From Psychroflexus gondwanensis ACAM 44 (GTDB lineage: Bacteria; Bacteroidota; Bacteroidia; Flavobacteriales; Flavobacteriaceae), in the NCBI RefSeq assembly GCF_000355905.1, contig NZ_APLF01000010.1, positions 1 to 64,000 on the forward strand: a stretch of 64,000 nucleotides of DNA. Direction: 5' to 3'. Below the pieces are notes generated by a model, which was not told the DNA's origin, did not search any database, and saw nothing but the letters and a program-made list of their open reading frames with translations. The position numbers and the translations under genes were made by a program. Below are positions 45 through 49,992 of the stretch, piece by piece. Position 1 is the stretch's first letter; every line of letters begins with the position of its first letter.

Positions 45-1172
45 CTAATCTAAGGGATTTTTTATTGTTTTAAAAGTATTTGTTGCCACATGAGTGTAAA
101 TTTCTGTCGTTTTAGTCGATTGATGCCCTAATAGTACCTGTATTTGTCTTAAGTCAACCCCTGCTTCTAATAGATGCGTAGCAAAACTATGCCTCAGCAT
201 ATGTGGCGTTACTGTAATTTTAATATTAGCTTTAAAAGCCGCTTTCTTTACTACGTTAACAACAGCTTGACCACTATATTTACCGCCTTTCTGCCCTTCA
301 AACAGATACTTTTTCGGTTTCCAATCTTTATAATAGCAGCGTAAATCTAACAATGCATTTTGTGATAATAAGGTAAGCCTATCCTTATTCCCTTTACCTT
401 GTTTTATCCGTACAAGCATACGTTTACTATCTATATCTTCAATTTTTAAATTGATCAATTCGCTTCGGCGTAAACCAGAGCCGTAGAGCAGTTCAACAAT
501 ACACCTGTGTTTAAGGTTATTGGTTTGGGCGATAAGGGCCAAAACATCTTCCTTGGAAATTATAATAGGTAGCTTGAACTCTTTTCTGGGTCTTTCTACC
601 TCATAAAACCGATTGGGCATACCCAATACAACTTCATAATAAAATTTGATGGCGTTGATGGCTTGATTAATGCAAGAGTTGGACTTATGCTGGCGAATAA
701 GCAGTTGTAGATACCCCCGTATATGGCTTTCATTAATGGCGTGCAAATCTATATCTGGATACTGGTTTATGAAGTGTTCAAAAAAATGAACATAAGTGCG
801 TATCGTGCTATTTGCATAGCGTTTAAGCTCTAGTTTTAATAAGTATTCTTCTGGACAACGACGGTGCTGTTCTGTGACTTTTCGCCTTCTGTACCAGTCA
901 ATATCTACCTCTTCATTAGTCGTATGAATAGGTCTATTGGTCAGAAATCGATTATAATTAATCCAAGCGACTCCTTTGAAAGTAGTGTAAATAGTAGACA
1001 GGTTGTTTTTGGTATTTAAAACATAGGCCATATTATAATGCGCACTCCATTTAGGATTATCCAGACTTTTTATAAGCGCCTGTAAAACCTTATCGGGTGT
1101 AAACTTGATGCCTATCATTTTTTTATTGTTGATCATCAAATGATAGAGAGTAATGTTCTTGAGCATATTCAT
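45..1172 (-). CDS. Tyrosine recombinase / integrase (XerD-like, N-terminally extended)
   Basis: Site-specific DNA recombinase of the lambda-integrase family, 375 residues against about 300 for XerC/XerD. The C-terminal catalytic domain shows the full set of residues: Arg235 (in GSGLRRSE), Lys260 (GKGNK), the HMLR box with His324 and Arg327, His350 (LLGHQS) and the nucleophile Tyr359 (EIYTHV). A SAM-like core-binding domain covers about residues 105-190. The first ~100 residues form an extra region typical of some solitary Bacteroidota integrases; the IntI-specific insertion is absent, so it is not an integron integrase. It diverges from a zinc-ribbon gene 64 bp away, and the gap holds two perfect inverted repeats. 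It is intact and probably active; what it moves is not visible, and the window edge cuts off its downstream side. Confidence 0.92.
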   Translation of the reverse strand: MNMLKNITLYHLMINNKKMIGIKFTPDKVLQALIKSLDNPKWSAHYNMAYVLNTKNNLSTIYTTFKGVAWINYNRFLTNRPIHTTNEEVDIDWYRRRKVTEQHRRCPEEYLLKLELKRYANSTIRTYVHFFEHFINQYPDIDLHAINESHIRGYLQLLIRQHKSNSCINQAINAIKFYYEVVLGMPNRFYEVERPRKEFKLPIIISKEDVLALIAQTNNLKHRCIVELLYGSGLRRSELINLKIEDIDSKRMLVRIKQGKGNKDRLTLLSQNALLDLRCYYKDWKPKKYLFEGQKGGKYSGQAVVNVVKKAAFKANIKITVTPHMLRHSFATHLLEAGVDLRQIQVLLGHQSTKTTEIYTHVATNTFKTIKNPLD

Positions 1173-3402: not shown

Positions 3403-4059
3403 ATGAAATCGATTACGATCAATGGATCTAAAAGAGAAAGCGTAGGCAAAAAAGCTACGAAAGCCTTACGTAATGCTGGAGAGGTCCCTTGCGTTATTTA
3501 CGGGGGGGATAATATCGTGCATTTTTCTGCGTCAGAAGTGTCTTTCAATAAGTTGATTTACACGCCAGATGTACACACCGTAGTAGTTGCCCTAGATGGC
3601 ACCAATACGAATGCTGTACTTCAAGATATTCAATTCCACCCTGTGACAGATGACATTCTGCACATTGATTTCTACGAATTCCACGAAGGACAGGAAATCA
3701 CTATGGAAATTCCTGTTCATTCTGAAGGTGTTCCTAAAGGAGTGAAAAATGGTGGGGTATTGAGATTTAACTTAAGACGTATGATGGTAAGAGGTCTTGC
3801 AAAAAACCTACCAGATTTTATCTTAGCAGATGTAACTCCGCTTAAAATTGGACAAAAAATGTATGTCACGGCGGTTGCAAGTGAAGATTATAAAATCATG
3901 CACCCAGACAATACATTAATTTGTCAAGTGAGAACCTCTAGAAATGTATCGCTTATCGGCGTTGATGAAGACGAAGACGATGAAAACGAAGAAGGAGCAG
4001 AAGGTGAAGAAAATGCTGCTGAAGGAGAGGGAAACTCTTCTGAAGATAGCAAAGAATAA
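3403..4059 (+). CDS. rplY: 50S ribosomal protein L25/general stress protein Ctc
   Basis: 5S-rRNA-binding protein of the large ribosomal subunit, in the long CTC form: an N-terminal L25 beta-barrel (about residues 1-90, with the motif [10 protein letters not shown]), a C-terminal TL5 domain (about 95-185, with [18 protein letters not shown]), and a low-complexity acidic tail rich in Glu, Asp and Asn from about residue 188 to 218. Acidic tails of this kind are common in flavobacterial L25. It lies downstream of prs, a pairing that is widespread in bacteria, and is followed at once by a terminator. Confidence 0.96.
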
Positions 4060-4080
4060 ATCTGAAGCTTATAATTTATT

Positions 4081-4110
4081 AAAAGCATCCTGTTTTTTCA
4101 GGATGCTTTT
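4081..4110 (+). terminator. Rho-independent terminator after rplY
   Basis: AAAAGCATCCTG pairs with CAGGATGCTTTT around a T-rich loop, and a T-rich tract follows. It closes the prs-rplY transcript; pth begins 20 bp later and so needs its own promoter or read-through. Confidence 0.85.
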
Positions 4111-4130
4111 TTATTTTTACAAAAAATCGA

Positions 4131-4754
4131 ATGAGAGCTTTTTTTGCCAGACTTCTAACCAAGGATAAAAAAGAAGAGGAAAACCCTATGAAGAAATTTT
4201 TGATTGTTGGTCTAGGTAACCCTGGCCCAAAATATGAAAATACCCGACACAACATCGGTTTTAAGATTCTGGATGCCTTGGCAGAAAAAAAAGAAGTGAG
4301 TTTTGAACCAGATCGCTATGGGGATAAAGCCGAAGTGTCTTTTAAAGGTCGTAAGTTTATTCTCATAAAACCCAGTACATTTATGAACCTGAGTGGTAAA
4401 GCCGTAAGATATTGGCTCGATAAAGAAAACATCGCCATAGACAACCTTATGGTGGTCACCGATGACCTGAACCTCAACTTTGGGATTTTTCGCCTCAAGG
4501 CAAAAGGAAGCGACGGTGGACATAATGGTCTTAAACATATCCAAAGCATACTCCAAACTACTCAATACCCGCGATTCCGGTTTGGAATAAGTGATGAGTT
4601 TTCCAAAGGAAGACAAATTGATTATGTCCTAAGCGAATGGAGTGACGAAGAAAAAAACCAACTCAAAGAACGATTGGACGCCTCTGCAGAGCTAATTTTA
4701 TCTTTTGGAACCGCAGGAATCCATAATACTATGAACGCCTTTAATGGAAAATAG
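4131..4754 (+). CDS. pth: Peptidyl-tRNA hydrolase
   Basis: Releases tRNA from peptidyl-tRNA that drops off the ribosome. The core begins MKKFLIVGLGNPG (ATG at 4188) and shows the family signatures NTRHNIGF (the catalytic His is in this block), KPSTFMNLSGKAV, DDLNLNFG and GSDGGHNGLK. The frame opens 19 residues earlier, at 4131, with a basic extension (RAFFARLLTKDKKEEE); related flavobacterial Pth proteins often carry such an extension, so either start is possible (207 or 188 residues). ribF starts 6 bp after the stop, so these form an operon with ribF and the HTTM gene. Confidence 0.95.
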   Translation: MRAFFARLLTKDKKEEENPMKKFLIVGLGNPGPKYENTRHNIGFKILDALAEKKEVSFEPDRYGDKAEVSFKGRKFILIKPSTFMNLSGKAVRYWLDKENIAIDNLMVVTDDLNLNFGIFRLKAKGSDGGHNGLKHIQSILQTTQYPRFRFGISDEFSKGRQIDYVLSEWSDEEKNQLKERLDASAELILSFGTAGIHNTMNAFNGK

Positions 4755-4760
4755 ATACGC

Positions 4761-5699
4761 GTGAAAATTTACAATAATGTTTCAGAATTCGATTCTAGTA
4801 TTCCAACGGTAGTGACCATTGGAACCTTCGACGGAGTGCATTTGGGCCACAGAAAGATCATAAAACGCCTTATTGATTCTACAGAAAAAGGTCACTTACA
4901 AACCGCCCTACTCACCTTCTACCCTCATCCTAGGATGGTCTTGCAACAAAGCGAAGACTTAAAATTGATCAATACCATTGAGGAACGAAAATTAATCTTG
5001 GAGGAAACTGGCTTGGAACACCTCATCGTGCATCCCTTTACTATGGATTTTTCAAGGTTATCTGCCCGAGAATATGTCGAAGAGATTTTAGTGAAATCCT
5101 TGAATGCCAAAAAAATAGTGATTGGCTACGATCATCACTTTGGAAGAAATAGAACCGCAAATATCGAAGACCTTAAGGAATTTGGTAAAGAGTTCAATTT
5201 TGAAGTTCTTGAAATCTCGAAACAAGATATCGAAGATGTAGCGGTGAGCTCTACCAAAATACGCCGATCTTTGGAAGATGGCGATCTGGAGACTGCCAAT
5301 AAATACCTTTCCCTCCCCTTTTTCCTCTCTGGAGAAATCGTAAGAGGTAAAGGCCTTGGAAAAAATATGGGATATCCCACCGCCAATATGGACATAGAAG
5401 AGTCCTATAAACTCATCCCCAAAGAAGGGGTGTATGTGGTCGCGTCTGTGATAAACGGCGATAAGCACTTTGGTATGATGAATATAGGGACCAATCCCAC
5501 CGTTGGCGGACAAAACCGCAGCATAGAAACCTATTTCTTTGACTTGGACAAGGATTTATACGGGCAACACCTTCATATCCAATTGCTGAAACGCATACGA
5601 AGTGAAGTGAAATTCGATGGTTTAGACGCCTTAGTTGAAGCCATGAGAGCCGATGAGGTCTTTGCGAAAAACTACATAAAGGTCTTCAATAATGAATAA
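4761..5699 (+). CDS. ribF: Bifunctional riboflavin kinase / FAD synthetase
   Basis: Converts riboflavin to FMN and then to FAD. The N-terminal nucleotidyltransferase domain carries TIGTFDGVHLGH and FYPHPRMVL, then GYDHHFGRNR and VSSTKIRRSL. The C-terminal flavokinase domain carries RGKGLGKNMGYPTANM and GMMNIGTNPTVGG. At 312 residues it has the normal length. It starts with GTG, 6 bp after pth; no in-frame ATG fits better because MKIYNN aligns with the family N-terminus. Its last 8 bp overlap the start of the HTTM gene, so translation of the two is likely coupled. Confidence 0.97.
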   Translation: MKIYNNVSEFDSSIPTVVTIGTFDGVHLGHRKIIKRLIDSTEKGHLQTALLTFYPHPRMVLQQSEDLKLINTIEERKLILEETGLEHLIVHPFTMDFSRLSAREYVEEILVKSLNAKKIVIGYDHHFGRNRTANIEDLKEFGKEFNFEVLEISKQDIEDVAVSSTKIRRSLEDGDLETANKYLSLPFFLSGEIVRGKGLGKNMGYPTANMDIEESYKLIPKEGVYVVASVINGDKHFGMMNIGTNPTVGGQNRSIETYFFDLDKDLYGQHLHIQLLKRIRSEVKFDGLDALVEAMRADEVFAKNYIKVFNNE

Positions 5700-7008
5700 A
5701 CTCCTCTTTAAGCAAGTTGATAATTCTCCACTCATCGTGTTTAGAATTATTTTTGGTTTGCTTATTGCCTTGGAGGCTTGGGGAGCTATAGCTACAGGTT
5801 GGGTTCGCAGAACTTTAGTCGAACCTAAGTTTACCTTCAACTTTATAGGATTCGATTTTTTGCAGCCTATTCCAGAACCAGGAATGTATATCTACTTTGG
5901 ACTCATGGGGTCCTTTGGCATCTTAATCATGCTTGGAGTCAAATATAGATTGAGCGTTATTGCCTATACCGTGTTGTGGACTTGCGTGTACTTAATGCAA
6001 AAAACTTCCTACAATAATCACTATTACCTTCTTATCCTTCTCCTTATCTTTATGTGTATTGTTCCTGCACATACTTACTTGTCTTATGATGCTAGAAAAA
6101 ATCCGAATCTGAGGTCTATAAAAATGCCCAACTGGGTCGTTCTATTTTTAATAGCTCAAGTCTGGATTGTGTATACCTATGCAAGTCTGGCCAAATTTTA
6201 TCCAGACTGGTTAGACGGGACTTTTCCAGAACTTTTAATGAAAGGTCGAGCACATTATTGGCTCATTGGAGACCTCCTCCAACACCAATGGACGCATGTG
6301 GGCATCACTTATTTTGGCATTTTATTCGATTTACTCGTCGTTCCTCTACTCTTATGGAAGAGAACACGGGTAACTGTGTTCTGGATCAGTGTATTCTTCC
6401 ATCTCTTCAACAGCATCGTGTTTCAGATTGGAATTTTCCCCTACATGTCGCTGGCATTTACGGTATTCTTTTTCCCAAAGCAGTATATCCAACAGACGTT
6501 TCTTAAATCCAAGCCATTTTACAGTAAAGACGCCTACGATTCTCCAAAATCAGCTCCATTAATCAAAACTTTTTTTGCAGTGTGGTTTATACTCCAGCTG
6601 CTCTTGCCACTACGTCATCATTTCATAAAAGGAGAGGTTCTATGGACCGAAGAAGGCCATAGAATGAGCTGGAGAATGATGCTAAGGTCAAAAACAGGTT
6701 ACTCGAGCTTTAGGATAAAAAACCTCACCACCGGCGAAACCAATTACGTTGAACTTGAGCAGTATTTAACTCAAAAGCAAAGACGACAACTTATTAAACC
6801 CGATGGGATTTGGCAATTTACCCAACACCTTAAAGAAGAGTATGCCGCAAAGGAAATTCCTATAGAAATATACGCTCGTATAAAAGTGGGTATTAATGGA
6901 AGACAGCCTCAATTTCTTATAGATCCTAAATTAGATTTGACGACCATCACTTGGAACTATTTTTCTCATAACGATTGGATTTTACCTCAGCCTGAATCGA
7001 TACCTTAA
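5692..7008 (+). CDS. HTTM domain membrane protein (vitamin K-dependent gamma-carboxylase-like)
   Basis: An inner-membrane protein of 438 residues with several hydrophobic segments between about residues 15 and 310, followed by a soluble C-terminal region (about 315-438). The N-terminal half (LIVFRIIFGLLIALEAW, then YNNHYYL and YASLAKFYPDW) is that of the HTTM family, related to animal vitamin K-dependent gamma-glutamyl carboxylase. Bacterial members are common in marine Flavobacteria but their reaction is not established. It overlaps ribF by 8 bp. Its stop overlaps the stop of the convergent SDR gene by 4 bp, so there is no room for a terminator between them. Confidence 0.85.
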   Translation: MNKLLFKQVDNSPLIVFRIIFGLLIALEAWGAIATGWVRRTLVEPKFTFNFIGFDFLQPIPEPGMYIYFGLMGSFGILIMLGVKYRLSVIAYTVLWTCVYLMQKTSYNNHYYLLILLLIFMCIVPAHTYLSYDARKNPNLRSIKMPNWVVLFLIAQVWIVYTYASLAKFYPDWLDGTFPELLMKGRAHYWLIGDLLQHQWTHVGITYFGILFDLLVVPLLLWKRTRVTVFWISVFFHLFNSIVFQIGIFPYMSLAFTVFFFPKQYIQQTFLKSKPFYSKDAYDSPKSAPLIKTFFAVWFILQLLLPLRHHFIKGEVLWTEEGHRMSWRMMLRSKTGYSSFRIKNLTTGETNYVELEQYLTQKQRRQLIKPDGIWQFTQHLKEEYAAKEIPIEIYARIKVGINGRQPQFLIDPKLDLTTITWNYFSHNDWILPQPESIP

Positions 7009-7814
7009 ACCTTGTTCTCTAATTCAATACCAAGGGTTTTTGACGTCCCATCCATTCGTATAGTTTTGCCTTTGGTGGTTTGTGTATATTCAAATTCTGG
7101 AGGAACAAGATCATACTCTTTAGCTTTTTTAGCATAATAAGCCTGCTTAGAAAGTTGAATGATTTCTACACCATGAAAAATCTCTCCAAATTGATCTTGA
7201 CTTATCACTTCTAAAATCAATCGAATACAGTTGGATAAATGAATCAAATTCACTGGCCCTTCTGGATTTTGCAAGCCTTTTCTTCCTGCGAGAAAGTGAA
7301 TAGGATGCCTGCCTTCTCCCACCAAACCTCCAAATCTTAACACACTAGCTTTGGCCGGGCTCAAATTCAGGATAAGTTGTTCTGCCTCTACAAGGGGATT
7401 CGCCTTGATTTCTGAAGAGCTAAATACATACTGCTCGCTATAGTCAGGAATACTTTCATGATCTTCAAAAACACCGGTAGAACTGATGTATAAAACTTTT
7501 GAAAGTGATGAAGCTGAAATAGCCTGTAACAAAGGCTTGACCTTAGCGATATAATTGGAGTTGGGATTTCGCCTTAAGCCTGGTGGAATATCGATAATCA
7601 AAATTTCAGAACCTTCAAGAAAGCTAGCGATATCGCCAAGGATTTTCTCCTCCTTCAATTCAATTTTGAAAGGCTGAATCCCTGCTGACTTAAGCACTTC
7701 TAATTTATCTTCAGAAGTCGAAGAGCCTTTGATAGTATATCCTTTTTCAATCAAGGATTTTGCCAATGGTATTCCTAACCAACCACATCCTAAAATAGAA
7801 ATCTGTGTGGACAT
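7005..7814 (-). CDS. NAD(P)-dependent epimerase/dehydratase-like (SDR) protein
   Basis: An extended short-chain dehydrogenase/reductase-like protein of 269 residues. The nucleotide-binding glycine motif is GCGWLGIPLA at about residues 9-18, and the strand with ILIIDIPPG plus the segment VLYISSTGVFED (about 112-125) is typical of YeeZ-type proteins. Where SDR enzymes have Tyr-x3-Lys, only YSEQYVF is seen, so catalytic activity is uncertain. It is the last gene of a three-gene minus-strand operon: its ATG shares one base with the stop of the M28 peptidase gene (TAATG). Substrate unknown. Confidence 0.82.
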   Translation of the reverse strand: MSTQISILGCGWLGIPLAKSLIEKGYTIKGSSTSEDKLEVLKSAGIQPFKIELKEEKILGDIASFLEGSEILIIDIPPGLRRNPNSNYIAKVKPLLQAISASSLSKVLYISSTGVFEDHESIPDYSEQYVFSSSEIKANPLVEAEQLILNLSPAKASVLRFGGLVGEGRHPIHFLAGRKGLQNPEGPVNLIHLSNCIRLILEVISQDQFGEIFHGVEIIQLSKQAYYAKKAKEYDLVPPEFEYTQTTKGKTIRMDGTSKTLGIELENKV

Positions 7815-10138
7815 TATAAATTCAATTTTTGTTGGGTTATAATAGCATCGTTCACGATAAATGGTTTGGGGATCATTTCTACAGGGCGTTTTTTTACTGA
7901 AAATAAAGGATGACTCAACAAATCAAAACTGATTTCATTAAAGGTAAACTCAACAGGTTGTGTTTTGTCCACTTCAAATTCAAATGACAATGGAACTTGG
8001 TTCACTACATAATAGTCGATGATGTTTTTCTGAAACCGATTGGTGTGCACATGGGCACTTTCTTCATCATTTGCTTCATAAAAATCGGCGGTGACTCCAT
8101 TAACTGTGAATGATTTAAAATTGGCTCTTGTAGCTTCTGACACTACAATTCTATTTAAATTTCGTTGAAAATCTACTTGTATTCTGAATTTTTTAAACCT
8201 TGGGCTTGAAGGTTCTAAGGTATCCACTTGAATTTGAGAACTAGGGATGGCTTTCAAGTCTGCTATTGACGATTTGGTATAGGCCGAATTGTATTTACTC
8301 TGGTAATCTAGTGAAGCGGTTAAGTCCTTGGCTTCTTTAAAATAAGGGGAAGTCCACGAGTCTAACTCATCGTCGTAAGTGAACCAATGGGCTGTATCGG
8401 TACTAGAGTCTAAAGCATAGACTAAGCTATTAGGAAGCGGCTGCGTTTCAGAAAAACCAGACCCAAGATGCGCTTTTATAAAAAAACCTATCGCCACCAG
8501 TAAAGCTAAAGTGGCAACCCCTTTTTTAATAGAAAAATAGCCAAAGATGGGCAATAAGTTACCAAATAACAAAACGGTGAAAACAGCACTCACCACTCCC
8601 ATTTTAAGACCTAATCCCACGGGGAAAAATTGAATAAATGGAGCTATAATGCTTAAGGAAGGCAGTATCAAAATCAGAAGAAAAAGATAAGACGGCACTT
8701 GAAGCCTTACCATTAAGAAAAAAGCAAAGAGCGTAAAAAGTAAGGGGATAATAAAAAAGGCTGCTCCTTTAAGAAATATATTCAATAAAAACAAAACTAT
8801 AAACCAGGTTAGAAGAGGAGCAATCATAGCGTTTTTAGGGTTTAACCTATGGTCGAAAAACTGATAGATACTAAACACCAAGAACAAAGAAAAGGCTACA
8901 AAAACAACGATATAATCATGCCCATTATAGGGGAATCCCTGTAAAATGGTGGAGTACTCTGGATAAATCTGTAGCAATAATGGCCAGGCAAAATAGATGA
9001 GGAATCCAGATAAAAATAAACTGAGCAACCAAGGGACAAAACCTAAGAAAATTTCTTTTCTGGTCAACGACTTGGTTTTTAGTCCATAAATTAAGATAAA
9101 GATGAAGATCGCAAAAGCAACAGCATAAATGATCCACACCCATGAAAATGGATAATGAAAAAGTCCCAAACCTGTTACTGTAAAATAGACTTGATCCTGC
9201 TGGGAGGTTAAGTCTGAAAGATCTGTATTGGAAAAGGCTTTTAGTGAAGACATCAGGTAATCCCCTTGATGGGATAAAGAACCTTTGTCCAGCCGACTTG
9301 GTGTATCCAAGGCGGTATGGTAATCGAAATGATCGTCTATAAAGGCAAAGAAAAAGCTGGGGACATCTGCAATTTCTCTAAATACTGTAGAGTCTGTGTC
9401 GTTGGGTAGAAGTTTATACACGCTATACATAAGAGAGTTGGCGAGCGGATGTTGGCCTTGGGATTCTCCAAAAAGGTCAATCAGTTTAGAATTCCCATAA
9501 TTGGTCTCCACAATCATATTACTTGGGCCTCCACTTCCTCGAGATTCAAAATTCAGAACCAAACCCACCTCATTGATCCATGGGTGCTCTTTGGCAAATA
9601 ATTCTGCCCCAGAAAGGCCTACTTCTTCACCATCGGAAAAAAGAATAATAATGTCATTTTGAAAAGAAGGCTTGCTCGCTTTAAAAGCTCTTACTGCTTC
9701 TAGTATGGCAGCTACTCCAGAAGCTGCATCGCTAGCTCCGGGCGAGGAATGAACGGCAGAATCGTAGTGAGAAAGGAGTAATAAAGCCTTAGAGTTTGGC
9801 AATGGATCGGTGGCTTCTAGCCTTGTAATAATATTTTCTGGAGCGGTGAGTACCCCCTTCTTGGAGAGCACAAAGCCTTGCTGAGTTTGAACTTGAAGAT
9901 CCATTTTTTCAAGTTCATTTACAATATAATTTCGTTTGGAATTATGGGCGTCAGAACCTATGTAGTGGGGTTCGTCACCAATATTTTTGACGTGCTCAAA
10001 AGCCCTTAAGGTTGAAAAATCTTTAGATTGAGTGGATAAATCGGTGATTTCTGAAGGATAAAGGTCGTAAAAGACATACCAAACGGCAGTAACGATCACA
10101 AGTAAACTTATAATGGCTTTATAATCTTTTTTTCTCAT
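7814..10138 (-). CDS. M28-family metallopeptidase with C-terminal membrane domain
   Basis: 774 residues. One membrane anchor at about residues 8-26 is followed by an extracytoplasmic M28 aminopeptidase domain (about 50-310). The zinc ligands and catalytic residues are visible in SHYDSAVHSSPGASDAASG, SDGEEVGLSGAELF, NFESRGSGG and HFDYHTALDTP. About eight to nine hydrophobic segments follow (about 330-570) and then a soluble domain (about 575-774). This architecture resembles the Fxna/ERMP1 type of membrane M28 peptidase. It likely trims peptides outside the cytoplasmic membrane. Its start overlaps the stop of the zinc-ribbon gene by one base, and its stop overlaps the SDR start in the same way. 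Confidence 0.9.
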   Translation of the reverse strand: MRKKDYKAIISLLVIVTAVWYVFYDLYPSEITDLSTQSKDFSTLRAFEHVKNIGDEPHYIGSDAHNSKRNYIVNELEKMDLQVQTQQGFVLSKKGVLTAPENIITRLEATDPLPNSKALLLLSHYDSAVHSSPGASDAASGVAAILEAVRAFKASKPSFQNDIIILFSDGEEVGLSGAELFAKEHPWINEVGLVLNFESRGSGGPSNMIVETNYGNSKLIDLFGESQGQHPLANSLMYSVYKLLPNDTDSTVFREIADVPSFFFAFIDDHFDYHTALDTPSRLDKGSLSHQGDYLMSSLKAFSNTDLSDLTSQQDQVYFTVTGLGLFHYPFSWVWIIYAVAFAIFIFILIYGLKTKSLTRKEIFLGFVPWLLSLFLSGFLIYFAWPLLLQIYPEYSTILQGFPYNGHDYIVVFVAFSLFLVFSIYQFFDHRLNPKNAMIAPLLTWFIVLFLLNIFLKGAAFFIIPLLFTLFAFFLMVRLQVPSYLFLLILILPSLSIIAPFIQFFPVGLGLKMGVVSAVFTVLLFGNLLPIFGYFSIKKGVATLALLVAIGFFIKAHLGSGFSETQPLPNSLVYALDSSTDTAHWFTYDDELDSWTSPYFKEAKDLTASLDYQSKYNSAYTKSSIADLKAIPSSQIQVDTLEPSSPRFKKFRIQVDFQRNLNRIVVSEATRANFKSFTVNGVTADFYEANDEESAHVHTNRFQKNIIDYYVVNQVPLSFEFEVDKTQPVEFTFNEISFDLLSHPLFSVKKRPVEMIPKPFIVNDAIITQQKLNL

Positions 10139-42430: not shown

Positions 42431-44233
42431 TTAATTAGAGTTACGCTGCTCCAGTTCGACCTGAAATTCTTCCATAACCGGTTTTACAGTGCTTTCAGGA
42501 ATATCTTCTATCCGGATATACATGAGCCCATCTACAGAATTATTGAAGAGTGGATCCACATTAAAAGCAACAACTTTAGCATTTTGCTTAATATACTTTT
42601 TGATGAGAACTGGAAGCCTGAGGTTACCAGGTTCAATTTCATCTATAATTTTATCAAATTTATTCAAATTAGCCTTAGTAGAATCAAAAATAAAATCCTT
42701 GTCGGCATCTTTTAGCTTCACTTTAAACTCTTTTTTGGGTCTTACAAATTGAGCCACGTAGGGATCGTAATAATTGGATTTCATAAATTCAATCATCATA
42801 GATTTTGAAAAGTTAGAGAATTTATTACTGATGCTCACTCCACCAATAAGGTATTTATGTTCTGGATACCTCAGCGTACAATGTACAATTCCTTTCCAGA
42901 GTAAAAAAAGGGGCATTGGCTTTTGTTGGTACTCGGCGGTTATGAACGCCCGACCCATTTCTATGGACTCGCTCAACATTTTATGCAATTCGGGTTCAAA
43001 TCGGAAAAGCTCATTGAGATAGAAACCATCAATTCCGTGTTTTTTATAAATATCCTTTCCTAGACCCATTCTATAAGCTCCCACCAATTTCTTGGCTTGG
43101 TTATCCCACAAAAACATGTGCTGATAGAAGTCATCGTAATGGTCTAGGTCTACAGATTTATTAGTCCCCTCACCCACAGACCTAAAGGTGATTTCCCTTA
43201 GCCTGCCTATTTCTAAGACTATATTTGGGATGTACTTTCGCTCTGCAATAAAAACCTCGTAATTATTGCTCACCAGAAGCCGTCTTGATTGGTCTCTGCA
43301 AGCTTGTACTTCTCCTTCTAAGGCCTCGCAAGCTATTTCGTTGGCGATGGTCTTAGGGGGTCGTTTTATAGGGAATTTAATCTGCTTAGGTAAATTTTCT
43401 AATAGCGTTTTCTTTTCGTATGAATTTGCTAAGAAATAGGTTTTTTGCCTTAAAAAACTGGAGTAGTTATCCAAGTCTGTTAGGTCATTTTGATCTGCTA
43501 CCGAAATTGGATTTCCTATCCTTACCCGAATAGGTCTATGTCCTTGATTAAGCGTTTCGCTAGGGAGCTTTGCAGTTCTAAGCGCATCATTCAGCTTGGA
43601 TAAGCGATAAAATGAAGCGGAATTCCTAGCGTGAAAATATACTGGAATCACAGGGACTTCTACTTTTTTAATCAACTTCATCGCCTCGTCGGACCAGGGT
43701 TTATCTACCACCCTTCGCCCTTCCTGATAGGTCGACACTTCTCCGGCAGGAAAAACCCCAAAAGGACTTCCAGACTGTATATGAGCTAGAGCTTGCTTTA
43801 ACCCAGAAAGGCTCGACTTTACCTCTTTTCTAGTTTCAAACGGGTTTACAGGCATGATGTAGGGCTTTAAAGGCAGTAACCGATGGAGCAAAAAATTGGC
43901 GACTACCTTAAAGTCAGGTCGGTGTTCTAAAAATAATTTAATAAGGATTAAGCCATCTACAGCTCCTAAAGGATGATTAGAAATCGTAACAAAAGGTCCT
44001 GTTTTAGGAATACGCTTGAGGTCTTTTTCGGGAATTTCGAACTCTACATCGAGATGCAAAAGAACGGCATCTATAAATTCAAGCCCCTCCAAGTGAGCAT
44101 ATTCATCGTAAATGTCATTGAGTTCTGAAATCCTAGTCGTCTGCATAATGAAGTTACCCATTACATTGCCAAGTATCCCAAATTTGGATAAATTGAGACC
44201 ATTTGCAATTTCACTCGCAGTAATAAAACCCAT
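42431..44233 (-). CDS. OlsF-type bifunctional acyltransferase (ornithine/amino-acid lipid synthesis)
   Basis: 600 residues made of two enzymes. N-terminal PlsC-type lysophospholipid acyltransferase (about 55-270): NHPLGAVDG with His87 and Asp93, later FGVFPAGEVSTYQ and VIPVYFHARNS. C-terminal GNAT-like hemolysin/OlsB domain (about 300-500): YEVFIAERKYIPNIVLEIGRLREITFR and MEMGRAFI-type block SIEMGRAFITAEYQ. The same fusion order defines OlsF, shown in Serratia and Flavobacterium johnsoniae to make ornithine lipids: the GNAT part adds the 3-hydroxy fatty acid to the amino acid and the PlsC part adds the second chain. Glycine lipids are an alternative product. First gene of a three-gene operon with HIT and CYTH. 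Confidence 0.85.
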   Translation of the reverse strand: MGFITASEIANGLNLSKFGILGNVMGNFIMQTTRISELNDIYDEYAHLEGLEFIDAVLLHLDVEFEIPEKDLKRIPKTGPFVTISNHPLGAVDGLILIKLFLEHRPDFKVVANFLLHRLLPLKPYIMPVNPFETRKEVKSSLSGLKQALAHIQSGSPFGVFPAGEVSTYQEGRRVVDKPWSDEAMKLIKKVEVPVIPVYFHARNSASFYRLSKLNDALRTAKLPSETLNQGHRPIRVRIGNPISVADQNDLTDLDNYSSFLRQKTYFLANSYEKKTLLENLPKQIKFPIKRPPKTIANEIACEALEGEVQACRDQSRRLLVSNNYEVFIAERKYIPNIVLEIGRLREITFRSVGEGTNKSVDLDHYDDFYQHMFLWDNQAKKLVGAYRMGLGKDIYKKHGIDGFYLNELFRFEPELHKMLSESIEMGRAFITAEYQQKPMPLFLLWKGIVHCTLRYPEHKYLIGGVSISNKFSNFSKSMMIEFMKSNYYDPYVAQFVRPKKEFKVKLKDADKDFIFDSTKANLNKFDKIIDEIEPGNLRLPVLIKKYIKQNAKVVAFNVDPLFNNSVDGLMYIRIEDIPESTVKPVMEEFQVELEQRNSN

Positions 44234-44311
44234 AGATAAATTGATTTAAAAGTAAAGATACTAAAGATTAATAATTCGTTTAGGATTGTTTTGCTTTATA
44301 AATCATTGATG

Positions 44312-44435
44312 GATATTATTTTTTAGACTTATTTTGTTCCTCAAGTAAATCACGTATTTCAGCTAAAAGTTCAATGTTTTTAGGAGTAGTTTCAGCCGGA
44401 TTGGTTTCATCCTCAGACCTTGTTCTTAATCTATT
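44312..44435 (-). pseudogene. Orphan 3' fragment of mscL
   Basis: A copy of the last 38-40 codons of mscL: read on the minus strand it encodes TRSEDETNPAETTPKNIE and LLAEIRDLL, then EEQNKSKK and a TAA stop. Compared with the intact gene (48526-48957) 111 of 115 bases match. It has no 5' part and no start. Its ending (SKK-stop) is probably the original mscL end, because the intact gene now ends SKI with its stop contributed by the neighbouring inserted sequence. Confidence 0.88.
44321..44435. repeat. Direct repeat, left copy (mscL 3' end)
   Basis: 115 bp in direct orientation relative to 48531-48645, with four base differences (at 44342, 44349, 44382 and 44419). Homology stops abruptly at both ends. 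Confidence 0.95.
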
Positions 44436-44776
44436 AAAGGACAAGTGTATAGCACTTTACTACGAAATTTAAAATTTACGGTTAAACCGTAATAAATGTA
44501 CGGTCAAACCGTAATTATAAGAGGATAGTAAGTTTTATCTTTATAAAAATTAAAGTATAAGATTAAAATCAAAATTTGAAAAAGGAGAATGTTTCTACAA
44601 GGTAGAAGCACTCCCAGTAAATTGACATGTTTAAACTACATCGTATTTCGAAAAAAAGATAGGGTTTTACATGAGAACTCCAATCTGCTTATTAAGATAA
44701 ATTAGCCTTGTTAAGTAATAATTAACCTACTTATGTTATAAAACTGAGTATAACTATATATTTAAAATTTACGAAA
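44436..44776. other. Non-coding leader of the inserted segment
   Basis: 340 bp with the palindrome pair, a further inverted repeat GTTAA-N7-TTAAC at 44710-44726 and a near-consensus -7 (TATATTTA, 44757-44764) only 12 bp before the first ATG. A 38-codon frame from 44589 has no recognisable features and is not annotated as a gene. Confidence 0.45.
44476..44513. promoter_or_regulatory. Two tandem palindromes 22 bp apart (possible operator pair)
   Basis: TTACGGTTAAACCGTAA at 44476-44492 is a perfect palindrome. TACGGTCAAACCGTA at 44499-44513 is a second, differing at one base of the shared 15. Their centres lie 22 bp apart, about two helical turns. They sit 40 bp inside the left end of the inserted segment and about 265 bp ahead of its first gene. 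Confidence 0.6.
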
Positions 44777-45031
44777 ATGAAAAATTTATTTTTTACCCTA
44801 ATATTGTTGTTAATTGGAAATGTTACTTTTGCAGACAATAAGCTTAATTTCAATGATATTGAAATTTTTAGAAGTTGTACAATAGCTATAACGACAACTA
44901 CAACTAATATGTTTGGTCAACAAGAAACAAGTACATCTTATCATTATCTTGGTGAGGTTGCAAATAATGGTTTCGGCAATTTAGATTGTCAAATGAGAGC
45001 TGATAGATACTTAGCCTTATACGCAGACTAG
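44777..45031 (+). CDS. Small secreted protein with two cysteines
   Basis: 84 residues. A typical signal peptide (KNLFFTLILLLIGNVTFA) is predicted to be cut near residue 19, leaving about 65 residues. The mature part holds a threonine run (ITTTTTNMFGQQ) and exactly two cysteines, Cys34 and Cys71, which could form a disulphide. No family recognised. It is the first gene of the three-gene set in the inserted segment and lies 21 bp before the GLPGLI gene, so it is probably expressed with it. Possible roles are a substrate or ligand for the two envelope proteins that follow; this is a guess from position. Confidence 0.7.
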   Translation: MKNLFFTLILLLIGNVTFADNKLNFNDIEIFRSCTIAITTTTTNMFGQQETSTSYHYLGEVANNGFGNLDCQMRADRYLALYAD

Positions 45032-45052
45032 TAACAAATAATTAAATCAGTT

Positions 45053-45829
45053 ATGAAATCAATTTTATCAAATATCCTTATTATTTTTCCTTTTTTTGTG
45101 TTTGGACAAAACACTATTATGGCTGAATATTTACATACGTCTGAAACATCTAATGCTAAAATGTCTAAGCGGATAGTGCTATATGCAAGTAATGAAAAGG
45201 CCAAGCAAGTACATTTTAAATCTCAACTTAATGAGGAAAATGAGTATGGCGCAAGCTTAAAGGAGGATGGGAGTATTTCTATCATAGAAAAACCGAGCGA
45301 TTTTAATAATGTGTGGTATTATAAAGCTTCAACAAAAGATATTGTAAAATCTGTAGTAAACTCCAATACCAATTATATTGTTTATGATACAGGTCTAGAC
45401 TATGATTGGGAAATTACTGATGAAGTTGATAGCGTTGGAAACTATCAAGTGATAAAAGCAACTACCTATTTTAGGGGTAGAGCTTTAATCGCTTGGTTCG
45501 CTCCAGCGATTCCTATAAGTTTTGGCCCTTGGAAGATCAATGGACTCCCAGGCTTGATTCTGAAGATGTATGACGAAGATCGAAAATTTACTTGGACAGT
45601 TACCAAACTTAATCTTAATGCAGAGCTAACAGAAGATAGTCTTGAGCCTCAAATTAGCGATGAAGCTAAAGAAATGACTTATCAAGAGGGCCTAAATATG
45701 TCTAGAAAAGCTTATGATGAAAAACAAAAACGAATCAATACAAAATTAGGTGGAAGAGGGGGAAACTTTAGGACTGTTCGACATAGAGACCAAGATTTGG
45801 AAAGAAAATATGAATGGGAAGAAAATTAA
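45053..45829 (+). CDS. GLPGLI-family exported protein
   Basis: 258 residues. A signal peptide (KSILSNILIIFPFFVFGQ) precedes a beta-rich protein. The family motif is KINGLPGLILKM with GLPGLI at 164-169, preceded by the conserved block AWFAPAIPISFGPW. GLPGLI proteins are found only in Bacteroidota and have no assigned function; they are often encoded next to a carboxypeptidase-regulatory / outer-membrane beta-barrel protein, as here (7 bp gap). The C-terminus is basic and charged (KRINTKLGGRGG, LERKYEWEEN). Confidence 0.92.
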   Translation: MKSILSNILIIFPFFVFGQNTIMAEYLHTSETSNAKMSKRIVLYASNEKAKQVHFKSQLNEENEYGASLKEDGSISIIEKPSDFNNVWYYKASTKDIVKSVVNSNTNYIVYDTGLDYDWEITDEVDSVGNYQVIKATTYFRGRALIAWFAPAIPISFGPWKINGLPGLILKMYDEDRKFTWTVTKLNLNAELTEDSLEPQISDEAKEMTYQEGLNMSRKAYDEKQKRINTKLGGRGGNFRTVRHRDQDLERKYEWEEN

Positions 45830-45836
45830 GTAAACA

Positions 45837-48536
45837 TTGAATAAACTATCCATATTAAAACATATACTACCATTCCTATTTGTTTTGATAGGAATGTTTA
45901 GTTATTCCCAAACCCAAATTGAAGGAACTATACAAGACAGCTTAGGAAATCCTATAGGCTACGTGAACGTATTACTTCAGCCAGTTGAGAGCAGCAGAAT
46001 TTTGGCTTATACCGCTACTCAACAAGATGGCAATTATCAACTCAACGTTAACAAAATAGGTGAGTTGAAAGTAGTATTTGTCTCTTTAGGCTATTCCAAA
46101 AAAGAAATCATAATCAACCTCAACGGTCAAGAGTCCATTGAAGTTAATGCCGTCCTTTTTGAAGAAGAAATGCTATTAGAGAATGTTAATATTGAGGGAG
46201 AACGACCCATTTCTATAAAAAAGGACACTATAATATTCGATGCGGATAGTTTTAGACGTGGTAGTGAAGTAGTGGTTGAAGATTTACTCAAAAATCTGCC
46301 TGGTGTGCAAGTCGACGGCGATGGCACCATAAAAGTAGGTGATCGTGAAATTGAACGACTCATGGTAGATGGCGACGATTTGTTTGAAAAAGGCTACAAA
46401 GTCTTGAGTAAGAATATGACTTCGGATGCCGTAGATAAAATTGAAATCTATGATAAGTATTCAAGTAACAAGCTACTCAAAGGCATTGAGGAGAGTGACC
46501 GGGTTGCTATGAATATTAAACTAAAAGACGACTACAACCAACAGTGGTTTGGAAATGCAGATGTTGGTATTGGAGGTTTGGATAAATTATACCAAAAAAA
46601 CAGAGTAAACCTGATGTCTTTTGGTAAAAAAAGTAAGTACTACTTCTTAGGTAATTCTAATAATATAGGCGAAGACGCTATTGGAGATGTGAGCCAAATG
46701 ATTAGGCCAATGCGGTTTAATCAACCAGGAAGTGTTGGGGATGGCGAACGTGCCAGTTCTTTAATCAGTCTTTATACAAATGTACCTCAATTAAAACGAG
46801 AGCGTACCAATTTTAATGACTCCAGACTGGTTTCCTTAAATGCGATTCATAATCTGAGTGAGGATATGAAACTGCGAACACTTGGATTTTTCAATTGGGA
46901 CAAAAATGAATTTTTCAGAAACACTGCAACTCAGTTTTTACTCAACGATAAAAACTTTACCAATACAGAAGATTTTTCCCTCACAAAAAACAAGTTTTTA
47001 GGTTTTGGAAAAATGGATTACACCTATGATATTTCAGACAACCAAATGCTAGAATATACGGGAAGTTTCAATAGTAGTGATATAAATTCTGACAGCAACT
47101 TGATTTTCAATGGAAATTCTACTCTAGAAAGCTTGCAAGATGATAATCAACAGATAGACCAAAAATTGTTGTACACCCATAAACTCAATGAGAAAGAAGT
47201 ACTTTTGTTGAGCGGAAGATACATCAATGATAAAAGTCCTCAAACTTATGTCAACAATCAATTTCTATTTGCTGATCTATTTGAGGATGAAAATAATATT
47301 GAGAATGTGGGTCAATTCAGTCAAAACACCATGGATTTTTATGGTACCGAAATTGAATATAAAAATCGTAAAGAGAACAAAAATTTAATTGAAGTGGTCG
47401 TAGGAGCAACTTACCGTAAAGACCAATTAGAATCTACTTTTCAATTAATAGACGAAAATGAAATCCGCATTGAACCTGAAGACTTTCAAAATCTAACGAA
47501 TTACGAAGTTTTAGACTTTTATGCCAAAGGAGATTACCTTTATAAATTAGGAGAAAACCTCAACCTAACCGGGAAAATTGAAGCACATCAATTGATGAAT
47601 AGTCTGGAAAATATCAATCAGGTAAATCAAAACCAAGACTTTTTTTATTTGCAACCCCAGTTAGGCATACGTTGGAAGTTGAATGACCAAAATACTCTTT
47701 TAGGCAGTTATACCTACTCTACCAATAATGCTTCTATCATCGATGTATATCCAAATAATATTTTGACCAACTTCAGGGGATTTATTCTTGGCTTTGGGAA
47801 GCCTACACAACTTAATTCGAGCAATTATATCCTAAACTATAGACTAGGTAACTTTGGGGATAAATTCTTTGCAAATGCGAGTGTCAATTATATCCAAAAT
47901 CATGATTTTTTCTCCAACCGTTCTTTCATTCAGCAAGAATTTCAAATCAATGAGAAGATATTAATTGAAAATCAGGAATTGTTTTCTGCAAATACCACTG
48001 TTGACCGCTATATAAAAGCTATTTCGTCTAACCTGAAGTTGAAATTGAATTATAGCCAGACCAACTTTATCAACTTTGTGAATCAGTCTGGACAACGTGA
48101 AATCAAAAACCAGAGTTATAGTTATGGACTGGAGTTAAGATCGGGTTTCCTATCGGGGTTTAATTACCATGTAGGGACAGAATTTAGAACTTCTGAAGTA
48201 AAGACCTTACAGAACAATTTCAGCAACACCTTCAGCAATACGGATAACTTTACTTTTTTAGATTTAAGTTATGTGTTTTCAGACCGATTTAATATGTCGC
48301 TGAATACAGAGTATTATTACTTTGGAAATCTGGAAAGCGATAACGACTATTATTTTTCAGACTTATCTGCTATGTACATTACTAAAAACAAAAAACTCAA
48401 TTTTGGCTTAAGTGCCAAAAACCTTTTTGACACTCGAACCTTTAGGAACTTCAATATTACAGATATTTCTACAAGTACAACTAGCTATAGACTTCTCCCA
48501 AGAATTATCTTGCTTAATGTGAATTTTAAATTTTAG
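45837..48536 (+). CDS. Outer-membrane beta-barrel protein, TonB-receptor-like, with CarboxypepD-regulatory domain
   Basis: 899 residues. Signal peptide ending FSYSQT, then a carboxypeptidase-regulatory-like fold (about 25-110; IEGTIQDSLGNPIGYVNVLL), a plug-like domain (about 120-230; VVEDLLKNLPGVQVDGDG, ERLMVDGDDLF) and a beta-barrel to the end, with terminal residue Phe (NVNFKF). It starts with TTG; no ATG fits the signal peptide. It probably imports, exports or binds a ligand together with the GLPGLI protein. The last 6 bp, including its stop, lie within the right copy of the mscL repeat, and it overlaps the end of mscL by 11 bp on the opposite strand. Confidence 0.9.
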   Translation: MNKLSILKHILPFLFVLIGMFSYSQTQIEGTIQDSLGNPIGYVNVLLQPVESSRILAYTATQQDGNYQLNVNKIGELKVVFVSLGYSKKEIIINLNGQESIEVNAVLFEEEMLLENVNIEGERPISIKKDTIIFDADSFRRGSEVVVEDLLKNLPGVQVDGDGTIKVGDREIERLMVDGDDLFEKGYKVLSKNMTSDAVDKIEIYDKYSSNKLLKGIEESDRVAMNIKLKDDYNQQWFGNADVGIGGLDKLYQKNRVNLMSFGKKSKYYFLGNSNNIGEDAIGDVSQMIRPMRFNQPGSVGDGERASSLISLYTNVPQLKRERTNFNDSRLVSLNAIHNLSEDMKLRTLGFFNWDKNEFFRNTATQFLLNDKNFTNTEDFSLTKNKFLGFGKMDYTYDISDNQMLEYTGSFNSSDINSDSNLIFNGNSTLESLQDDNQQIDQKLLYTHKLNEKEVLLLSGRYINDKSPQTYVNNQFLFADLFEDENNIENVGQFSQNTMDFYGTEIEYKNRKENKNLIEVVVGATYRKDQLESTFQLIDENEIRIEPEDFQNLTNYEVLDFYAKGDYLYKLGENLNLTGKIEAHQLMNSLENINQVNQNQDFFYLQPQLGIRWKLNDQNTLLGSYTYSTNNASIIDVYPNNILTNFRGFILGFGKPTQLNSSNYILNYRLGNFGDKFFANASVNYIQNHDFFSNRSFIQQEFQINEKILIENQELFSANTTVDRYIKAISSNLKLKLNYSQTNFINFVNQSGQREIKNQSYSYGLELRSGFLSGFNYHVGTEFRTSEVKTLQNNFSNTFSNTDNFTFLDLSYVFSDRFNMSLNTEYYYFGNLESDNDYYFSDLSAMYITKNKKLNFGLSAKNLFDTRTFRNFNITDISTSTTSYRLLPRIILLNVNFKF

Positions 48537-48957
48537 ACTTATTTTGTTCCTTAAGTAAGTCACGTATTTCAGCTAAAAGTTCAATGTTTTTGGGAGTAGT
48601 TTCAGCCGGATTGGTTTCATCCTCAGACTTTGTTCTTAATCTATTTATGATCTTGATGACTGCAAAAATAGATAAGGCAATGATCAAAAAGTCTATGGAC
48701 GTTTGGAAAAAGTTACCGTAGGTTAATTGCATAGCCTCATGAGTGATGACGCCATTTTGTATAATTTCCTCTCTTAAGACTAGGCTAAGCTCTTTAAAAT
48801 TGACATTTCCTATTACAATACCCAAAAGTGGCATCACGACATCATCCACCAAGGAGGTCACAATTTTGCTAAAGGCGGTCCCGATAATGATACCGATTGC
48901 CATATCGAACATATTCCCCTTAATAGCGAATTCTTTAAATTCTTTAATGATTTTCAT
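48526..48957 (-). CDS. mscL: Large-conductance mechanosensitive channel
   Basis: 143 residues; the homopentameric channel that opens under membrane tension to release solutes on osmotic downshock. N-terminal amphipathic helix (KEFKEFAIKGNMFDMAIG), first membrane helix with the gate region (IGIIIGTAFSKIVTSLVDD), second membrane helix (IDFLIIALSIFAVIKII) and a charged C-terminal helix (LLAEIRDLLKEQ). The final codon and stop come from sequence outside the repeated block, so this gene appears to have been re-ended by the insertion; the protein differs from the putative ancestral form only in its last residue. Confidence 0.96.
   Translation of the reverse strand: MKIIKEFKEFAIKGNMFDMAIGIIIGTAFSKIVTSLVDDVVMPLLGIVIGNVNFKELSLVLREEIIQNGVITHEAMQLTYGNFFQTSIDFLIIALSIFAVIKIINRLRTKSEDETNPAETTPKNIELLAEIRDLLKEQNKSKI
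48531..48645. repeat. Direct repeat, right copy (within intact mscL)
   Basis: Counterpart of 44321-44435, 4210 bp away; 111 of 115 bases identical. This copy is joined to the rest of mscL. Confidence 0.95.
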
Positions 48958-48996: not shown

Positions 48997-49992
48997 TTAA
49001 GAAAGATGAATTTCGGTAGGCATTTCAAAAGTAATAGGCTTGGAGGTAAGGTCTTTAGACTCCAGTCTGTTAATGAGTAATTCTGCAGCTTTAGATCCAA
49101 TTTTCATTGCATTTTGATCTATATAGTCGATTCTTGGATAGCTCAAAAGTGAGTTTTTCTCGTCTGAAAATCCAATCAGCGGGATTTCAGAACTGGTATT
49201 AGGCTTTTCTGATTTTAAAATACTCTTAAACATGAGGGAAGAGGTATTATCTGCTGAAATGACACCATCGATCTCCTGCATAGATAAAAAGGCTTTAATG
49301 AGCCCATGAGGGTCTGAAGATGCCGTAAGGTCTAAACTTAGACTGTGGTTGACTTCTATGCCCTTATCCCTAAGAGCGTTTTCATAACCTTCTTTTCTCA
49401 ACTGACCTAAGTTTAGGTCCTCGATATTGCTTACAAAAGCAATTTTAGTTTTGCCTTTAGAAATTAAAATTCGCGTGGCATCATAAACCGATTTCTTATC
49501 ATCAATCACCACCTTATCGCAGTCAACTTGATCTGTAGTCCGATCAAACAACACTAATCCTTTTTTATTCAGTGCAATTTGGTCTATATGTTTAAAATCA
49601 TCCTGAGCTAGACTTTCTGAAGATAACGAAAGAATAAAACCATCTACTCGTCCTTGCATCAATAAATCAAGACTTTGCGCCTCTTTTTTCAACTGGTCGT
49701 GACTTACGCAGACGATGGTATCGTAATTATGTTCCGCCGCATAGTCTTCTATGCCATGAAGTACTTGAGCGAAAAAAGGATTGAGGATATCAGGGATAAT
49801 CACCCCTATCGTATTGGTTTTATTTACTTTAAGTGCAAGAGCTGTTTTATTGGGTCTATAATTATAAAGTTCAGCTGCTTCTTTGATTCGCTTTTTGGTG
49901 CCTTCACTAATATCTTTAGCATCGTGAAGTGCCTTAGACACTGTTGAGACAGAGACGTTTAGTTGCTTGGCAAGTTCTTTTAGAGTGATCAT
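48997..49992 (-). CDS. LacI-family transcriptional regulator
   Basis: 331 residues. The N-terminal LacI helix-turn-helix and hinge helix (ITLKELAKQLNVSVSTVSKAL, about 1-50, with the hinge at YRPNKTALAL) is followed by a periplasmic-binding-protein-like effector domain (TIGVIIPDILNPFFAQVL, VDGFILSLSSES). It lies next to the GH3 beta-glucosidase gene, so its effector is probably a sugar from the locus. Its own promoter contains an inverted repeat overlapping the -7 element, which suggests autoregulation. Confidence 0.95.
   Translation of the reverse strand: MITLKELAKQLNVSVSTVSKALHDAKDISEGTKKRIKEAAELYNYRPNKTALALKVNKTNTIGVIIPDILNPFFAQVLHGIEDYAAEHNYDTIVCVSHDQLKKEAQSLDLLMQGRVDGFILSLSSESLAQDDFKHIDQIALNKKGLVLFDRTTDQVDCDKVVIDDKKSVYDATRILISKGKTKIAFVSNIEDLNLGQLRKEGYENALRDKGIEVNHSLSLDLTASSDPHGLIKAFLSMQEIDGVISADNTSSLMFKSILKSEKPNTSSEIPLIGFSDEKNSLLSYPRIDYIDQNAMKIGSKAAELLINRLESKDLTSKPITFEMPTEIHLS

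Follow-up and report, generated by a model that had tools for sequence, protein, structure and literature searches.

A duplicated mscL 3' end around an inserted gene module suggests one-sided recombination at an exchange locus in Psychroflexus

In a 64,000-nucleotide stretch of the Psychroflexus gondwanensis ACAM 44 genome (contig NZ_APLF01000010.1, positions 1 to 64,000 of the forward strand; hereafter the window), a module of three genes lies between the conserved genes olsF and mscL and is bracketed by two direct copies of the mscL 3' end. From comparison of this locus with its relatives, we conclude that the arrangement is a genuine scar of recombination, with good precedent, and that the interval is a site of exchange. 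Across related species, one locus occurs in empty, filled, replaced, and scarred forms, and another holds two scars, one nested in the other. Gene-end scars of this type would record the one-sided entry of DNA, a record that clean double-crossover exchange erases. Our comparisons covered 27 Psychroflexus genomes, including that of the window (G000; 3.31 Mb, a draft of 62 contigs) and its sister G025, and protein families were called by Pfam and NCBIfam scans of the encoded proteins.

The repeat pair and the alleles of the olsF-mscL interval

The two copies (44321-44435 and 48531-48645) measure 115 bp each, start 4210 bp apart, and are 96.5% identical, with four mismatches at left-copy positions 44342, 44349, 44382, and 44419. 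This pair was the sole direct repeat of at least 45 bp reported in the window, and a search of the whole genome with the left copy (E ≤ 0.001) returned these two places alone, the second at E = 2.4e-49. Homology ends sharply on both sides, at one edge where the stop codons of the receptor-like module gene and of mscL meet and at the other inside mscL; at lower identity, the match extends to 126 bp at 94%. The right copy forms the last 28% of an intact mscL of 143 aa with the C-terminus ...KEQNKSKI. Read in the mscL frame, the left copy ends in ...EEQNKSKK-stop and runs, on an uninterrupted contig, into spacer homologous to that of G025. Both olsF and mscL lie on the minus strand, and the three module genes on the plus strand. 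An earlier reading made from the letters of the window (the sequence-only reading) had described two 115-bp direct copies with four differences and sharp edges, an orphan left copy that kept the original mscL end, and three intervening genes running against both neighbors; repeat comparison and genome search confirmed all of this, with the orphan adjoining the native olsF spacer.

The distance from olsF to the left mscL match is 88 bases, and the equivalent distance in G025 is 92, which indicates that no resident DNA was lost. The spacer and the neighbors are likewise intact relative to G025. We take the left copy to be the displaced native end of mscL.

olsF and mscL are direct neighbors, with an empty interval, in 7 of the 27 genomes (G025, G013, G004, G024, G008, G005, and G021). 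Module genes separate them in three (G000, G001, and G016), with no homologue of the 84-aa module protein found in G016. In one more genome, G018, a 3.9-kb contig has the receptor gene separated from mscL by one extra small gene; olsF was not found in G018. The remaining 16 genomes are uninformative, as olsF and mscL are not adjacent or one of them was not found; an olsF match was present in 23 of the 27 genomes, and in 1 of these 23 it was partial. Between its conserved neighbors, the interval can hold nothing, the module, or the module plus the extra small gene. On an rpoB tree of the 27 genomes, the 11 scored states require at least three changes, with filled G000 placed beside empty G025. 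These empty junctions support the insertion into a once-empty site that the sequence-only reading had proposed, and the empty sister runs against the refuting case it had named, in which all close relatives would carry the module without duplication. It had also expected the module beside other mscL 3' ends, and this arrangement was found in G001 and G016, with the receptor gene near mscL in G018.

The 115-bp duplication at this interval is present in G000 only; G001 and G016 carry the module without the left copy. In all three genomes, the receptor gene and the mscL end meet at the same point within a few bases, so the filled junction was probably not formed anew each time, and the right junction probably arrived already formed.

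G001 and G016 are sisters, with 93%, 94%, and 97% identity in olsF, mscL, and the LacI-family gene, respectively; their receptor proteins are 74% identical and their GLPGLI proteins 57%. DNA identity between them falls from within olsF to within the receptor gene (G001 L065, ~3751-8250) and is regained before mscL. In a receptor tree of six sequences, two of them partial, G000 grouped with G016 and G001 with G018 (support 99-100), and a G001+G016 receptor clade was rejected (approximately unbiased test, p 0.0008). We conclude from these comparisons that this pair underwent replacement of a tract with one end in olsF and the other in the receptor gene. The best explanation would be that the olsF-mscL interval serves as an exchange locus in the genus, where homologous recombination operates without an integrase. 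The minimal mobile elements of Neisseria are regions of differing content between two conserved genes, exchanged via recombination in these neighbors. The Psychroflexus interval is like them in its variable content and in its exchange through flanking homology, to which the low-identity tract and the rejected clade point, and unlike them in that one of its alleles also bears a gene-end scar.

Probable one-sided entry of the module and competing readings

The anatomy of the G000 allele calls for homology on the mscL side alone, with all resident DNA retained. We consider it probable that the module arrived by one-sided integration of DNA ending in the 3' end of its target gene, probably as a circle and by a single crossover. 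An incoming fragment from a close relative, in which an mscL 3' end already adjoined the module, would have used this end alone for recombination with the resident mscL, and its other end, just upstream of the module operator, would have been joined without homology. By the likeliest route, a linear fragment would have been trimmed and closed into a circle by ligation, and one crossover, presumably dependent on RecA, would have followed in the 115-bp mscL end. Direct one-sided insertion would yield the same product, with the displaced native mscL end on the left, then the module, and a working mscL on the right.

Insertion with long target duplication is a kind of event in which the insert has no known transposase or integrase. 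With its empty site, long target repeat, and lack of a known transposase or integrase, the G000 insert appears to be of this kind. It shares with the Helicobacter pylori insertions (Nobusato et al. 2000) a long direct repeat that copies the target and an empty site in a related genome; in the excerpts that describe them, those insertions often carry restriction-modification genes, whereas the Psychroflexus cargo consists of GLPGLI and receptor-like genes (PMC1643837, PMC4978471, PMC3031569).

The sequence-only reading had seen in this footprint a circle and a single crossover, and such repeats are known as single-crossover products from Escherichia coli. According to excerpts of that work, in which linearized DNA had homology at one end, 56 of 60 Lac- clones gave a polymerase chain reaction product of a partial target duplication, and 14 sequenced duplications of 109-950 bp were explained by trimming, re-ligation into a circle, and single crossover (PMC3240628). 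Partial duplication of the homologous end is common to both systems, and the repeats of 115 bp here and 432 bp in G016 (see below) fall within the E. coli range; an inner 68-bp pair in G016 falls outside it and may have decayed. The E. coli products came from laboratory conjugation with plasmids, whereas the Psychroflexus case would be a natural one. Homology-facilitated illegitimate recombination also involves homology at one end and none at the other. In the same excerpts, its products generally have a deletion, and four true one-sided illegitimate insertions carried deletions (PMC3240628), whereas G000 has a duplication with nothing deleted. Another partly available source proposes this process for Vibrio immunity-gene arrays (PMC5361080).

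As to how the DNA was taken up, transformation is possible. ComEC-family and DprA proteins are encoded in the genome, which adds little weight because each family was also found in 10 of 14 control genomes, E. coli included. In the excerpted text of a Riemerella study, three of its four unusual transformation proteins have homologues listed for Psychroflexus (PMC8459023).

The ancestry of the two copies and of the mscL body was examined by alignment with G025 and 11 other genomes. Flank identity to G025 was 91% on the left and 89% on the right, where the flank includes the diverged mscL body. The right copy matched G025 at 100 of 115 positions and the left copy at 96 of 115, and the best other genome reached 83 of 106. 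At all four mismatch sites, the right copy has the G025 state; two of the left-copy states are absent from all other aligned genomes, and the other two are found in 10 and in 5 of these 11 genomes, so a simple reading in which the left copy decayed is disfavored. Both copies thus belong to the G000 lineage. Because both are nearest to G025, the mismatches do not show a distant donor, and the hint that the sequence-only reading took from them, of an incoming copy from a relative, is unsupported as regards a more distant relative. A circle carrying the mscL end of a distant species was rejected, as neither copy is closest to another species.

Several points weigh against one-sided entry as set out here. 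The mscL body matches G025 at 220 of 305 positions and the end at 100 of 115 (Fisher p 0.0013), the body is no closer to G025 than to several other species, and none of the 11 other aligned genomes has a close match to it. This divergence would be left unexplained unless the G025 mscL, which is broken by stops and a ~42-base insertion near the repeat edge in mscL and may be the odd one, was itself replaced. Among the genomes compared, no donor with the module beside a near-identical mscL end was found. After a single crossover, one copy would be expected to contain a run of donor-type sequence; with four differences, no such run can be seen. Finally, sampling 1.2 Mb of G000, G016, and the control G033 revealed no further clear case of a gene 3' end duplicated around cargo, which suggests that the process is rare.

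The same final structure would also result from the reverse direction, in which a filled lineage received an empty-type fragment, with olsF and the mscL end, that recombined at olsF and was joined without homology just upstream of the module, where its mscL end stayed. Such a history fits a left copy in an intact native spacer and the two of four left-copy states that are those of other species. However, the join would have to hit the short stretch ahead of the operator by coincidence and leave the module unharmed, and with the sister G025 empty, an empty resident is the simpler start; we regard this direction as unlikely. Gene conversion after a wider import, in which module, mscL end, and mscL body were all foreign and the right end was later converted by the left copy, would account for a body 72% and an end 87% identical to G025 and for a likeness that stops where the second copy stops. 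We judge it improbable, since conversion would be required over the whole 115 bp between copies about 70-78% alike, the G025 mscL that supplies the comparison is itself broken near that same point and may be the odd one, and the G000 body lacks a close match among the 11 other genomes.

Direct repeats at a gene 3' end, with the gene restored, are the classic footprint of genomic islands, and the G000 repeats match it. A site-specific island, with attachment sites at the gene 3' end and an integrase acting in trans or since lost, is nevertheless very improbable. No PF00589 recombinase lies in or near the module (PF00589 being the one recombinase family searched genome-wide), the repeat lengths differ between related cases (68, 115, and 432 bp), G001 and G016 have the module without the repeat, and their replaced tract ends within olsF and within the receptor gene. 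An integrase attachment site was rejected on the first two of these grounds. We give practically no credence to an old mscL paralogue, which the sequence-only reading had named as a refuting case, or to an artefact of the 62-contig draft, because the left copy holds only the last 28% of mscL, is 96.5% identical, and sits in the native olsF spacer on a continuous contig.

A nested case in G016 and the frequency of gene-end duplications

The most interesting part of our findings is a nested case in G016. At L073:9306-12783, 432 bp of the 3' end of a glycosyltransferase family 2 gene are duplicated at 97.7% identity, with three small genes on the opposite strand between the copies. The cargo in turn lies between two mscL 3' ends of 68 bp (84% alike), and a 66-bp fragment of the receptor gene comes after it. 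Among the 26 other genomes of the genus, homologues of one cargo gene occur in three, G018, G003, and G008; the G018 homologue (52%) sits between mscL and the receptor gene, and the G003 and G008 copies are elsewhere. Given the mscL ends, the receptor piece, and the G018 homologue, the cargo probably came from an mscL-receptor junction.

The L073 tract from 7651 to 9758 and from 12112 to ~13800 is 91-100% identical to G000 in 150-bp windows, compared with 59-84% to G001, G013, G024, and G008. On this evidence, we conclude that the tract is a recent between-species import from a G000-like donor. The glycosyltransferase locus of G000 has one copy and no cargo. Relative to it, the left L073 copy differs at 5 of 432 positions and the right copy at 13 of 432; the two copies differ from each other at 10 sites, of which the left is G000-like at 9. 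The pair resembles two haplotypes from a single donor species.

We tentatively raise the possibility that, in Psychroflexus, cargo without an enzyme of its own moves between the 3' ends of genes by one-sided recombination, retaining the end of its last host gene as a stamp. If this were true, the G016 insert would show two steps, mscL and then glycosyltransferase, and gene-end stamps would be readable as itineraries of between-species gene flow. The olsF-mscL and L073 loci would form a natural counterpart of laboratory products and offer a way to seek enzyme-free movement of accessory genes.

The 400-kb samples contained 8 local repeat pairs in G000, 19 in G016, and 3 in G033. Two pairs were doubtful: one in G016 (175 bp, 96.6%) touches a 101-aa open reading frame (ORF) and resembles an intergenic repeat, and one in G000 reaches into the final 3% of an ORF where repeats are abundant. 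In 34 Psychroflexus stretches including the window (581,732 bases, chosen rather than random), we counted 19 pairs, among them those of the window, L073, and L066; 10 of the 19 fall in the repeat array L172, some touching gene ends. The 76 loci of other genera (1,259,084 bases) gave six pairs, and no ORF of 100 aa or longer had its 3' end in any of them. A DNA search of the 27 genomes with the mscL 3' end found orphan copies in G000 and G016 only. This search missed the own ends of some mscL genes, so diverged orphans could be missed; the second G016 fragment was found outside it.

Two further repeat structures were observed. One, in P. sediminis (L066:11938-13944), resembles the gene-end duplications described above: a 590-bp duplication at 81% identity surrounds a 94-aa gene on the opposite strand; the duplicated unit comprises the end of a HIT-like gene and the next gene, and its second copy is decayed. 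In G003 (L172:1-11005), small genes, mostly on one strand, are separated by related ~215-bp repeats whose ends resemble inverted repeats, giving the look of a cassette array, and the repeat also occurs in G000 contig C3 (L193, L195).

Genes of the module and features of the locus

The features of the locus are listed in Table 1. The module has a G+C content of 33.0%, and its flanks 38.6% and 38.7%. Its description as foreign-looking in the sequence-only reading was half right: the module is an allele that members of the genus have in common and exchange at one and the same position. For the 84-aa ORF, neither Pfam nor NCBIfam gave a family. For the 899-aa protein, these scans matched no barrel family, a sequence search for solved structures gave no match, and a related-loci search with it as query returned no relative. 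From the families present, we would guess at a role in nutrients or at the surface. According to excerpts of the Riemerella study, the DUF5689 partner of a DNA-uptake pair adjoins a CarboxypepD_reg protein (PMC8459023). A receptor of this DNA-uptake type was considered and dropped because the partner gene differs, being GLPGLI here and not DUF5689.

Table 1. Positions of the features discussed, in window coordinates
Feature	Position	Strand	Basis or remark
olsF-like acyltransferase gene, left conserved neighbor	42431..44233	-	Pfam acyltransferase and GNAT domains; NF052615 (OlsF) match below cut-off
Native olsF-mscL spacer, including native mscL stop	44234..44320	.	Homologous to sister G025
Left copy, taken as displaced native mscL 3' end	44321..44435	-	Repeat and G025 comparison
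Module leader	44436..44776	.	Alignable from ~44445 to leader of G001 module; G+C 25.9% for 44441-44776
Two palindromes TACGGTNNAACCGTA, probable operator pair	44477..44513	.	Motif search, 0.03 matches expected in window
84-aa ORF, small secreted-looking protein	44777..45031	+	Homologue in G001 (51%)
GLPGLI family protein	45053..45829	+	TIGR01200, E 5.8e-39
899-aa protein, CarboxypepD_reg domain	45837..48536	+	TonB-receptor-like by size and domain only; stop codon inside mscL end
Right copy, 3' end of intact mscL	48531..48645	-	Repeat comparison
mscL, intact	48526..48957	-	ORF, Pfam, NCBIfam
mscL body	48646..48957	-	220/305 (72%) identical to G025, unlike rest of locus (~90%)
LacI-family regulator, right conserved neighbor	48997..49992	-	Pfam, NCBIfam

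The palindrome TACGGTNNAACCGTA was found in 8 of 263 loci (two loci each from the window, G016, and G001, at this module, and one each from G005 and G004). The G005 and G004 loci (L042 and L059) hold distant receptor homologues, and 5 of 30 receptor loci bear the palindrome. The pair is a probable operator that would accompany some members of the receptor family.

The Pfam and NCBIfam scans of the three module proteins found no transposase or integrase, and none of the 10 PF00589 matches in the genome lies in or near the module, so that the earlier statement of a segment without a recombinase gene holds for these searches. The one PF00589 match on the contig is a tyrosine recombinase domain on the minus strand at window positions 81-557 (E 4.3e-42), ~44 kb from the module.

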